Shown here: positions 41,365-45,872 of the stretch, in pieces
How the letters are laid out: each line of letters opens with the position of its first letter
Position numbering within the stretch: position 1 is the first letter of the stretch
Assembly (NCBI RefSeq): GCF_014197915.1
Contig: NZ_JACIGK010000028.1
Location: 1-55,810, forward strand
DNA from: Roseospira visakhapatnamensis
GTDB taxonomy: Bacteria > Pseudomonadota > Alphaproteobacteria > Rhodospirillales > Rhodospirillaceae
Direction: 5' to 3'
DNA length: 55,810 bases
The notes under the pieces: generated by a model
Databases searched by the model: none
Seen by the model: only the letters and a program-made list of their open reading frames with translations
What the model was told of the DNA's origin: nothing
Made by a program: the position numbers and the translations under genes

Positions 41365-41382
41365 GGGCACGGCCTCCTTGCC

Positions 41383-41520
41383 GGTCACGAAAATGGGCCG
41401 ATCACGAAAATGGACCGATCACGAAAATGGACCGATCACGAAAATGGACCGATCACGAAAATGGACCGATCACGAAAATGGACCGATCACGAAGAAAACG
41501 GGCCGGTCATGAAAAAGGGC
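41383..41520. repeat. 17-bp tandem repeat array upstream of carbonic anhydrase
   Basis: Five perfect copies of GATCACGAAAATGGACC start at 41400, 41417, 41434, 41451 and 41468. A variant unit precedes them (41383) and two longer or altered units follow (41485 and 41505). The unit is AT-richer than the region. It is not a multiple of three, so all frames translate into repeats, but no gene is expected. The array starts 19 bp upstream of the carbonic anhydrase start and runs into the tRNA-Ala terminator. Confidence 0.95.
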
Positions 41521-41903: not shown

Positions 41904-42269
41904 TTACTCGTCCTCTCCATCGCTGTCGAGATGATCGATGACCTCGGCCATGTCGTCATCGTCCTCGCCCAGATCCGAGGCGTCCTCCATCATGTCCCCG
42001 GCTTCATCCTCGGTATCGTCCAGGTCCGGCGCCTCAAGGTTGGTCTTGACGACGTCTTCGACCTCCTCAAGGGCCGCGGCCGCCACCACCGGCACCGCCT
42101 TAGGCTTCTTGTCCGGCACAGCCGGGCGCGCGCGCCGCGCACGCACGGGGGCGTCCTCCTCGTGGACGGCCCCACACTTGGGACAGACGATCGGCTGGCG
42201 CCGCATGTCATAGTATCGGGCTCCGCAGGAGCCACAGGATCGCTTCGTTCCCCATTCCGGCTTGGCCAC
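41904..42269 (-). CDS. FYDLN/TIGR02300-type zinc-ribbon protein
   Basis: 121 residues. The N-terminus has a zinc ribbon, [20 protein letters not shown] followed by PKCGAVHE, as in the alphaproteobacterial TIGR02300 (FYDLN acid domain) family. The rest is a very acidic tail of about 50 residues ending [19 protein letters not shown] and Glu/Asp. The function is unknown. GTG 42269 is the start, with AGGAGG about six bases upstream; the protein then begins with the family's AKPEWGTKR. The divergent position next to the aroA-cmk-rpsA locus is characteristic. The frame is open for another kilobase upstream by GC bias only. Confidence 0.9.
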
Positions 42270-42531
42270 CCGGACCTCCTCCTGCAGGCGCGCCGGATCC
42301 CTGGTTCCGGTTCCGGCGCGGTGGCAGACGCGATACGACAACAACAGAGTCTCAAGAGGGGCGCGTTTGCCATCATCGACAAGCCAAGTCAACGCCCGAT
42401 GCGCCCGCGCGCCCACTCTGTCGCACACGGCATGGACCCTCTCGGGACACGCGGGAAACCCGGCCCGGCGCGGTGCTTTGTCGCCAAGGACTGTCGCCGG
42501 CCGGCCGTGCGTGGTACACGCGGGCTGCCCC

Positions 42532-43353
42532 ATGTCGTCCCGATTGCCGCCCGCCGCCGCCATGCCCCCATCACTGGTCCCGACACAGCCGCCCGGTCCG
42601 CCCGCCGCCCCCACCCGCGCCGCCGTCACGGCGCCGGCGGTGACCGCGCTGGGCGCCCTGATGGCGGCGGCCACGGTGGGCGAAAGCCGTCTGCCGGCGG
42701 CCTGGGTGCCCGCCCCCCTAGCCCGCATCCTGGTCGGGCTGGGCGCGCGCGTGCGGTCCACCGACACCGGGGTGACGGTGCGTGGCCGGGGCCTGGGCGG
42801 GCTGGCCGAGCCGACCGCGCCGCTGGACGTGGCCGCCAGCCCCGACGGCCCGGTCCTGCTGCCGCCGCTGGCCGGGCTGCTGGCCACCCAGCCGATCCTG
42901 GTGGTGATCCTCGGCCCGGCGGACATGGACCTACCGGCGGACCTGATCGAGGTCCTCATGCGCGTCGGCGCCCGGCCGCGCGCCGCCGGGGAGGGCCGGC
43001 GATCCCCCCTGAGCATCCAGGGAACCGCCGCGCCCGTGGCCCTGGACCTGGGCGCCGATCCGCCGCCCTCGATCACACCGGCGGGCGCCCTCGCGGCGGT
43101 GGCCGCCGGACTGAACAGCCCGGGCGAGACCCGGGTGCCGCTGCCCGCGCCGCTGGCCGAGGCCCTGGCGGCGCTGCTGACGGCCTTCGGGGTTCCGGCC
43201 CGGATCGCCGCCGGCCCATCCCCCCCGGCGGACGACGGACCGGTCCACCTGTGCCTGACGGGCGAGGTGGAGACCCGGCCGGTCGACATCCCGGCCGGCG
43301 ACCGCCGTTTCGTCCCGTTCCGCCCATCTCCGCAGGACCCCGGTACACCATGA
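42532..43353 (+). CDS. Degenerate half-length AroA-like protein (pseudo-EPSP synthase)
   Basis: 273 residues. It aligns by eye with the first half of 5-enolpyruvylshikimate-3-phosphate synthase: [57 protein letters not shown] and [12 protein letters not shown]. Every substrate-binding motif is replaced. The GDKSxSHR loop is [10 protein letters not shown], GNxxTxxR is AASPDGPV, LxxRPM is DMDLPADL, SAQxKSA is TPAGALAA, and TRDHTE is APLAEALA. The protein stops where the second domain should begin. The frame is intact and G/C-ending, and its TGA overlaps the cmk ATG as in normal aroA-cmk operons. It cannot be an active synthase, so a functional aroA must lie elsewhere. It may be a decaying gene kept open by coupling, or a repurposed protein. 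ATG 42562 is an alternative start. Confidence 0.7.
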
Positions 43354-44039
43354 TCATCGCCATCGACGGACCCGCCGCCGCCGGCAAGGGCACCCTGGCC
43401 CGCGCCCTGGCCGACCGGCTCAACCTCGCCTACCTGGACACCGGCCTGCTGTACCGGGCCACCGGGCATGCCGTGCTGCGCGCCGGCGGCGATCCCGCCG
43501 ACCCGGTCACGGCCGAGGCCGCCGCCCGCGCCCTGTCCCCGGCCGACCTGGACGACCCGGACCTGCGCACCGAGGCGGCGGCGGCCGCCGCCTCGGCGGT
43601 GGCCGCCCTTCCGGCGGTACGCGCGGCCCTGCTGGACGTCCAGCGGGCCTTCGCCGCCCGCCCGCCGGCCGGCCGCGACGGCGTGGTCCTGGACGGTCGC
43701 GACATCGGCACCGTCGTCTGCCCCGAAGCCGACCACAAGCTGTTCATCACCGCCACCCTCGAAACCCGCGCCCGTCGGCGCTTTCTGGAGTTGCGGGACA
43801 AGGGCGTTGACGCTATAGAGTCCAGCGTTCTCCACGACATGGTGGACCGGGACGCGCGCGATTCGTCGCGCCGCGTCGCGCCGTTGGTTCCGGCCGCCGA
43901 TGCGTTCGTGCTGGACACCTCCGACCTGAGTGTGCACGACGCCCTGGCCGCGGCCCTGGCTTACGTTCGCAAGCGCCAGGAGCGGAGCGGGTCCACACCC
44001 GCCGGCACCGACGCCGACGCCGACACCGATGTTTCCTGA
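43350..44039 (+). CDS. cmk: Cytidylate kinase
   Basis: 229 residues. It phosphorylates CMP and dCMP. The P-loop is [19 protein letters not shown], followed by [37 protein letters not shown] and the lid [19 protein letters not shown] with [16 protein letters not shown] 43350 overlaps the stop of the AroA-like gene by ATGA. The C-terminus carries a short Thr/Asp/Ala tail ([11 protein letters not shown]) like the one on MurD. rpsA follows after 84 bp. Confidence 0.95.
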
Positions 44040-44123: not shown

Positions 44124-45872
44124 ATGGCCGAAGCCGCCACCGACACCCACGCCACCGACAGCCAGGATTCCGGAGCCGACATCTTCGCGGCCGAATCCTT
44201 CGAGGCCCTGCTGAACGAAACCCTGGGCGAGAACAGCAGCCTTGAAGGCACCGTCATCAAGGGCACCGTCATCGCCGTGCGCAACGACCATGTGGTCGTG
44301 GACGTCGGCCTGAAGTCCGAAGGACGCGTGCCGCTGAAGGAGTTCACCAAGGCCGGCGAGGATCCCGAACTGAAGCCCGGCGACGGCATCGACGTCTACG
44401 TCGAGCGCTACGAGGACCGCGACGGCAACATCATCCTGTCGCGCGAGAAGGCCCGGCGCGAAGAGGCGTGGAACGAGTTGGAGAAGGCCTACACCGAAAG
44501 CCGCCGCGTCAAGGGCCAGATCTTCGGCCGCGTCAAGGGCGGCTTCACCGTGGACCTGTCCGGCGCCATGGCCTTCCTGCCCGGCAGTCAGGTGGACATC
44601 CGCCCGGTGCGCGACATCACGCCGCTGATGGGCCAGCCGTTCGAGTTCCAGATCCTGAAGATGGACCGCTCGCGCGGCAACATCGTCGTCTCGCGCCGCT
44701 CGGTGCTGGAGGAGACCCGCGCCGAGGAACGCGCCAAGCTGCTGGAGCGCCTGAAGGAAGGCGAGATCCTGGACGGCGTGGTCAAGAACATCACCGACTA
44801 CGGCGCGTTCGTGGACCTGGGCGGCGTCGACGGCCTGCTGCATGTCACCGACATCTCGTGGAAGCGCATCAACCACCCCACCGAGGCCCTGTCCATCGGC
44901 CAGACGGTGCGCGTGCAGGTGATCCGCTTCAACCCGGACACCCAGCGCATCAGCCTGGGCATGAAGCAGCTGGAGGCCGACCCCTGGGAGGGCGTGGCCG
45001 TCAAGTACCCCACCGGCACCAAGTTCGCCGGCCGGGTGACCAACATCACCGACTACGGCGCCTTCGTGGAACTGGAGCCGGGCGTCGAGGGTCTGGTCCA
45101 TGTCTCCGAGATGAGCTGGACCAAGAAGAACGTGCACCCGGGCAAGATCGTCTCCACCAGCCAGGAAGTCACCGTGATGATCCTGGACGTGGATCCGGAC
45201 AAGCGGCGCATCTCCCTGGGCCTGAAGCAGACCATGGGCAACCCCTGGTCCGACTTCCTGGGCAAGTTCCCCCCGGGCACCGAGGTCGAGGGCGAAATCA
45301 AGAACATCACCGAGTTCGGCCTGTTCATCGGCCTGCCCGGCGAGATCGACGGCATGGTCCACCTGTCCGACCTGGACTGGGCCCGGTCCGGCGACGAGGC
45401 GGTCAAGGACTACAAGAAGGGCGACGTGGTCAAGGCCAAGGTCCTCGACGTGGACGTGGACAAGGAGCGCATCAGCCTGGGCATCAAGCAGCTCGGTGAT
45501 GATCCCTACGCCGCCGCCACCGCCGACCTGCGCAAGGGCCAGACCGTCACCGGCGTGGTCACCCAGGTGCAGGACAACGGCATCGAGGTGGAGGTCAGCG
45601 GCGCCATCGGCTTCATCCGCAAGAGCGATCTGGCCCGCGATCGCGGCGACCAGCGCCCCGAGCGCTTCGCCGTCGGCGAGAAGGTGGACGCCAAGATCAC
45701 CAACATCGACAAGGCCAATCGCCGCATCGGCCTGTCCATCAAGGCACGCGAGGTGGACGAGGAGAAGCAGGCGATGGCCGATTACGGCTCCGCCGACTCG
45801 GGCGCCTCGTTGGGCGACATCCTGGGCGCCGCGCTGCGGCAGGCGCAGGAAAAGGCCGACGGCGACTCGTAA
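44124..45872 (+). CDS. rpsA: 30S ribosomal protein S1
   Basis: 582 residues with six S1 (OB-fold) domains starting near 41, 126, 213, 297, 384 and 471. The central ones carry the classic pattern, for example VVKNITDYGAFVDLGGVDGL and RVTNITDYGAFVELEPGVEG. S1 brings mRNA to the small ribosomal subunit. AAGGAC (44108-44113) lies ten bases before the ATG. It follows cmk as is normal, but the ihfB gene that usually comes next is absent; a strong terminator follows instead. Confidence 0.97.
   Translation: MAEAATDTHATDSQDSGADIFAAESFEALLNETLGENSSLEGTVIKGTVIAVRNDHVVVDVGLKSEGRVPLKEFTKAGEDPELKPGDGIDVYVERYEDRDGNIILSREKARREEAWNELEKAYTESRRVKGQIFGRVKGGFTVDLSGAMAFLPGSQVDIRPVRDITPLMGQPFEFQILKMDRSRGNIVVSRRSVLEETRAEERAKLLERLKEGEILDGVVKNITDYGAFVDLGGVDGLLHVTDISWKRINHPTEALSIGQTVRVQVIRFNPDTQRISLGMKQLEADPWEGVAVKYPTGTKFAGRVTNITDYGAFVELEPGVEGLVHVSEMSWTKKNVHPGKIVSTSQEVTVMILDVDPDKRRISLGLKQTMGNPWSDFLGKFPPGTEVEGEIKNITEFGLFIGLPGEIDGMVHLSDLDWARSGDEAVKDYKKGDVVKAKVLDVDVDKERISLGIKQLGDDPYAAATADLRKGQTVTGVVTQVQDNGIEVEVSGAIGFIRKSDLARDRGDQRPERFAVGEKVDAKITNIDKANRRIGLSIKAREVDEEKQAMADYGSADSGASLGDILGAALRQAQEKADGDS

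Follow-up and report, generated by a model that had tools for sequence, protein, structure and literature searches.

On balance, we favour the view that in Roseospira visakhapatnamensis and its closest relatives the native class II AroA (EPSP synthase) was replaced by a foreign one, and that what is left of it, the N-terminal domain, now serves CMP kinase (Cmk) as an accessory domain without catalytic activity. The leftover was identified in a contig of 55,810 bp (NZ_JACIGK010000028.1), here referred to in its entirety as the window, as a 273-aa open frame on the plus strand (42532..43353) which, from the frame and its profile alignment, we annotate as a non-catalytic remnant of the N-terminal half of class II AroA. 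At the level of sequence, the switch of AroA class, the truncation, the erasure of the active site, the conservation of other positions and the in-frame joining to Cmk are established.

The locus and its neighbours

The remnant precedes cmk, which encodes (d)CMP kinase (43350..44039, plus strand; TIGR00017, 170.6 bits against a cut-off of 135.55), and this is followed by the conserved neighbour rpsA for the 30S ribosomal protein S1 (44124..45872, plus strand; TIGR00717, 664.9 bits). On the other side lies a divergent neighbour, an FYDLN_acid gene region (41907..42257, minus strand; TIGR02300, 54.7 bits against a cut-off of 41.65). In the window species the stop codon of the remnant and the start codon of cmk form an ATGA overlap at 43350-43353. 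The open frame, the overlap and these neighbours had been described in an earlier sequence-only reading of the window, and both the frame and the profile matches confirm them.

Six genomes were compared as the genus set: the window species (G000), four species in which the remnant is joined to Cmk (G001-G004) and one in which a 51-nt gap separates the two (G005). The set includes Rhodospira trueperi, Roseospira marina, R. navarrensis and two Rhodospira MAGs. The true start of the remnant may be the ATG at 42562, because the MPPS start at that point is common to G000 and G005. By eye, no clear Shine-Dalgarno sequence was seen ahead of the remnant in the two unfused species, G000 and G005 (window 42500-42600); purine-rich stretches precede the starts in some of the fused species. 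Elsewhere in the window (41381-41493), 6.6 copies of a 17-bp unit, CCGATCACGAAAATGGA, with 97% match lie between tRNA-Ala(GGC) and the beginning of a minus-strand gene for carbonic anhydrase (carbonate dehydratase model).

Homology of the remnant to class II AroA

Searched alone, the window protein gave no Pfam match at E ≤ 10 and matched TIGR01356 with an E value of 0.0013 (17.7 bits, far under the cut-off of 287.25) and PRK14806 with 1.4e-8. Across the genus, matches at E ≤ 10 were obtained with Pfam EPSP_synthase for one of the six members, with TIGR01356 for three (the best at 1.2e-6) and with PRK14806 for all six. The profile of the genus alignment, on the other hand, matched class II entries of the PDB with E values from 1.2e-17, for AroA 3rmt, to 5.7e-7; the class I entries 3ti2 and 3nvs reached 0.002 and 0.008, with chance-level matches such as ankyrin designs near and below them. 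We take 3rmt, 3roi and 2gg4 to be class II AroA, and 2gg4 to be the CP4 enzyme.

Aligned by hhalign to class II AroA sequences of the family and order (the filter took out 2 of the 44 class II rows), the remnant scored 99.6% over 231 columns in local mode and 99.8% over 249 columns in global mode. The local match spans template columns 6-246 of 456, and the contiguous N-terminal domain of AroA ends at about this point; the second domain is absent. The kinship with AroA is therefore marginal when judged from the single sequence and secure, by alignment, from the genus as a whole, and the remnant would be expected to fold like the AroA N-terminal domain. The sequence-only reading had placed a degenerate first half of AroA at the native aroA position, which the hhalign and PDB profile matches bear out.

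Distribution of the remnant

All six genus genomes carry the remnant, at 300-352 bits and with the same truncation, which rules out an assembly error or a recent deletion. Among 297 genomes of the order, including five of the six genus members, the next best match after the genus (300-352 bits) had 104 bits, and 29 genomes showed no match to the remnant at E ≤ 1e-10. Among the matches listed, those from outside the genus all fell in open frames of at least 423 aa, as intact AroA. A scan of 84,980 species genomes, using a pattern derived from the remnant alignment itself, returned 17 loci; 5 of these are genus loci without the catalytic motifs, except for one chance RPM (L080), and the 12 others carry all five. 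The same short form, which the earlier reading had proposed to look for in related genomes, is thus shared by five relatives, and no full aroA occupies this place in the genus.

A class I-type AroA elsewhere in the genome

A complete aroA displaced to another part of the genome had been predicted from the window, and we found it at G000:C3:166832-168214 (L063 6830-8368, minus strand). The encoded protein is of class I type and passes the aroA cut-off. It is the only complete aroA of the window genome and lies on another contig, the two weaker matches being both on one contig. In all six genus genomes a class I-type AroA located elsewhere passes the aroA cut-off. Within the family (73 genomes), a search with this type gave 740-1000 bits in the six genus members. 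Of the other 67 genomes, 61 did not exceed 118 bits and 6, several of them incomplete, had no match; a complete class I-type AroA was found in none of the 67.

When the replacing AroA was compared with the PDB, a chloroplast entry came first (291 bits), followed by a group at 250-256 bits, which we take to be from E. coli, and by another at ≤142 bits, which we take to be class II. The assignment of organisms to class I and class II is that of PMC3411725, as far as the part of it used here goes. The remnant is not a recent copy of the displaced AroA, as a BLASTP comparison of the two gave an E value of 0.41 and the remnant is class II-like.

No donor of the class I-type AroA was found in 298 other Pseudomonadota genomes, since the best match among them had only 40% identity (277 bits), and 51 of the 298 matched the replacing AroA at E ≤ 1e-60. 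One alphaproteobacterium with a class I-type AroA (G380) was considered as an independent replicate and set aside, because its aroA and cmk lie divergently, ~230 bases apart, which is a different arrangement. In an order-mate (G045), two aroA genes exceed the family cut-off (L161 and L162), of which one immediately precedes cmk and the other is on a different contig; this is possibly an early stage of a similar replacement.

Arrangement of the remnant with cmk

In four of the six genomes (G001-G004) the remnant runs in frame and with no stop into Cmk, with ~250 extra residues before Cmk; the junction is a 4-base overlap in G000 and a 51-nt gap in G005. A tree built from 38 distinct Cmk proteins resolved the species with a joined remnant and those with a separate one as sister clades (100/98) within a common genus clade (97/91). 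The simplest history is a single fusion in the ancestor of the four joined species, although an ancestral fusion followed by one split is also conceivable. Among relatives, 59 loci with the GDKS motif were compared; aroA is of normal length there and in no case runs on into cmk; this set holds some genomes twice, one locus without a stop, and some loci at which the cmk start was not found or is not ATG.

Cmk of the five other genus members also passes the TIGR00017 cut-off, in G004 with its frame matched in two pieces. In the window genome cmk is the only match, and a second cmk over the cut-off, which would free the joined gene, was detected in none of the six genomes, the two matches of G004 being a single frame. 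In the fused species Cmk may be translated separately, since candidate internal GTG/TTG starts exist 3-5 codons before the Cmk DGP motif.

Loss of the active site and conservation of other positions

The AroA motifs GDKSxSHR, GNxxTxxR, RPM, SAQxKSA and TRDHTE are gone from the remnant. We examined 18 active-site or signature columns, each with a conservation of 90% or more among 42 class II sequences (two signature columns below 90% were excluded); their names and positions in the remnant alignment follow what we take to be the CP4 numbering. Only 4 of the 108 cells in these columns are kept, 6 being gaps, which is at chance level as composition alone predicts 5.5. By comparison, the 65 other columns of the same domain conserved at ≥90% keep 174 of 390 cells (27 gaps), against 36 predicted from composition (Fisher p = 3e-18 for site versus other conserved cells, the cells not being independent). 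The kept cells comprise 147 of 276 for Gly, Ala, Leu, Pro and Val, and 27 of 114 for the remaining residues. The selective loss of catalytic residues noticed from the window alone is hence seen throughout the genus.

The former site has become mostly non-polar: such residues occupy 90 of its 102 aligned cells, compared with 1093 of all 1514 residues (Fisher p = 8e-5, again with cells that are not independent). The Gly/Ala/Arg/Pro fraction is 0.48-0.53 in the remnant, 0.39 in class II relatives and 0.44-0.50 in Cmk of the same species. The residues that would bind shikimate-3-phosphate are absent. Homology to an enzyme is thus combined with loss of the catalytic residues, as in a pseudoenzyme.

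Selection on the remnant

A pseudoenzyme should also be constrained at the protein level. The codon analysis used 211 codons of 295 alignment columns, after positions with a gap in any species were dropped; the rpsA comparison was made without G002. Amino-acid identity within the genus is 39-60% for the remnant, 66-83% for Cmk and 76-90% for the class I-type AroA, and the remnant thus evolves faster than Cmk in the six members. Omega fitted on the remnant's own dS (0.01-0.07) was unusable and was discarded, as synonymous sites are saturated; for the same reason, every omega given below depends on a borrowed clock.

With the clocks of cmk and aroA, omega of the remnant was 0.37 and 0.33, respectively, and omega = 1 was rejected (2ΔlnL 384 and 475). 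When the clocks were halved, omega rose to 0.75 and 0.66, and omega = 1 was still rejected over the six species (2ΔlnL 34 and 71). Ten 40-codon windows along the remnant gave 0.27-0.49 at the cmk clock. Mean amino-acid identity was 0.47, where neutral simulation gave 0.18 with the cmk clock and 0.29 with half of it. Of the 211 codons, 44 were invariant, against a simulated mean of 1.2 (6.8 at the half clock).

For the unfused pair G000/G005, omega was 0.50 (cmk clock) and 0.26 (aroA clock), and for two fused pairs 0.28-0.49; with the clock set to about half, omega = 1 becomes acceptable for two of the three single pairs, among them the unfused one. Differences between G000 and G005 at the three codon positions of the remnant are 0.28, 0.27 and 0.46, being highest at the third. 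A slower clock for the remnant is not suggested, because its third positions differ more than those of cmk (0.46 versus 0.26). Taken together, the codon models support purifying selection on the protein, and dN/dS, which had been proposed as a check, came out at 0.33-0.37 with the borrowed clocks. The constraint expected of a pseudoenzyme was accordingly found with the neighbour clocks, and it depends on them, as neutrality would fit two of the three pairs with the clock cut to about half. A chance open frame or random decay is disfavoured by the genus-wide conservation and by the codon tests, to which the caveat on the clock applies.

Possible explanations of the remnant

The main rival to our reading is that the remnant has no function and is held hostage by its frame: stops, frameshifts and aggregating variants would be purged as they lower Cmk, and the sequence would otherwise drift. 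This would account for the intermediate omega, the Gly/Ala/Arg/Pro shift, the chance-level active site and even the retention of other AroA positions, and it suits the four of six species in which remnant and Cmk share a frame. The unfused pair is harder to explain in this way, as there a stop would spare Cmk, and yet G000 and G005 are about as constrained as two fused pairs, which speaks against fusion alone keeping the remnant; a stop in G000 could nevertheless still weaken coupling to cmk. The 44 of 211 invariant codons and the presence of the remnant in all six genus genomes examined also argue against mere drift, and we regard this explanation as rather unlikely, though to be taken seriously.

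A new function in trans that is unrelated to Cmk, perhaps in the shikimate pathway or with the class I AroA as its target, would fit the separate and still constrained protein of two species. It appears improbable, given that the remnant adjoins cmk in all six genomes, in frame in four, and that the residues which would bind shikimate-3-phosphate are gone.

The sequence-only reading had offered two explanations, selection for translational coupling to cmk or a repurposed non-catalytic protein, and they fared differently: purifying selection agrees with the second, and the first is not supported as the main reason. If coupling were all, the frame would be kept only so that ribosomes reach the ATGA start of cmk, and its amino-acid sequence would be irrelevant. 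The window species has that overlap, and 4-base aroA-cmk overlaps also occur in several relatives with intact aroA. However, within the genus the overlap is found in one species of six, G005 having its 51-nt gap and four species reading in frame into Cmk, and the constraint is on the protein, whose amino-acid identity exceeds the neutral expectation. As a full explanation we hold coupling to be very improbable.

Least credible of all is a recent pseudogene on its way out, which long chance frames in the GC-rich window, the fast evolution of the remnant and the fit of omega = 1 to two of three pairs at a halved clock might suggest, but against which stand the truncation common to six species, the rejection of omega = 1 over these species with both neighbour clocks even when halved, and the excess of third-position differences between G000 and G005.

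The reading that we prefer, an AroA domain retained as an accessory domain of Cmk, would run as follows. An ancestor of the genus would have acquired a class I-type aroA elsewhere in the genome, and EPSP synthesis would have passed to it. The native class II gene in front of cmk would afterwards have been truncated to its N-terminal half and its catalytic residues lost; we infer this order, replacement before truncation and erasure. The N-terminal domain would have been retained as a folded, non-catalytic protein and would serve CMP kinase as an accessory domain, in the form of an N-terminal extension of Cmk in four species and of a separate protein, acting in trans, in the other two. In these two, one of which is the window species, it most likely continues to act on Cmk by stabilising, scaffolding or modulating it. 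That the remnant acts on Cmk at all is suggested only by their adjacency and in-frame joining. Against this reading, its fast evolution and its shift towards Gly, Ala, Arg and Pro fit weak selection for mere folding. More tentatively, it is possible that the former AroA domain, with its cleft rebuilt from mostly non-polar residues, is a dedicated regulatory or stabilising subunit of Cmk, separate or joined according to the branch.

Comparison with known systems

The remnant resembles class II EPSP synthase (3rmt, 3roi, 2gg4) in the profile of its N-terminal half and in its gene place before cmk and rpsA, and differs in lacking the active-site positions and the C-terminal half, with 17.7 bits against the 287.25 of the family cut-off. 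With bifunctional AroA-Cmk (PRK11860) it shares an AroA-derived part before Cmk in one frame, in four of six species; here, however, that part is half an AroA, non-catalytic as judged from its residues, and is separate in the window species. The isolated N-terminal domain of EPSP synthase (PDB 1p88/1p89, 216 residues) is the same half standing alone, but as an experimental fragment, whereas in the genus remnant the binding residues are gone. That isolated domain is reported to bind shikimate-3-phosphate (Stauffer 2001).

The closest precedent is the TyrA-AroF fusion of Pseudomonas syringae, in which, according to the sections of PMC1173090 used here, the EPSP synthase domain is truncated and a stand-alone EPSP synthase was acquired; these sections disagree on which end of the AroF domain was lost. 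As here, the acquired aroA lies elsewhere and the old AroA domain is a non-functional part of a fusion, and the authors consider it possible that such a leftover turns into a new regulatory domain. That case, as described in the same part of the paper, concerns one species, with TyrA as the partner and no test of selection; ours concerns a whole genus, with Cmk as the partner, the N-terminal half kept and selection estimated. The same sections report that alphaproteobacteria stably keep the order aroF > cmk > rpsA and that the aroF of Agrobacterium tumefaciens, a divergent one, has no linkage to cmk or rpsA. Replacement of aroA in alphaproteobacteria is therefore not new as such. Among the open-licence PMC papers listed by our searches, judged mainly by title and opening of the abstract, we came across no account of a degenerate AroA beside cmk.

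Such a remnant is easily overlooked, as it has no Pfam match in the window and in four species reads as extra residues of Cmk. What had been read from the window did not extend to the fusion with Cmk, to the change of class that came with the replacing AroA or to the age of the event, which is genus-wide. A gene that has been replaced would normally be expected to disappear; in this genus the leftover half stays throughout, apparently under selection at the protein level. With a joined branch and a separate sister branch, the genus makes the regulatory-domain suggestion, as worded in the part of PMC1173090 used, testable. If the former AroA domain is indeed a regulatory or stabilising subunit of Cmk, gene replacement would here have yielded a new regulatory domain, with both of its states, separate and joined, alive today.
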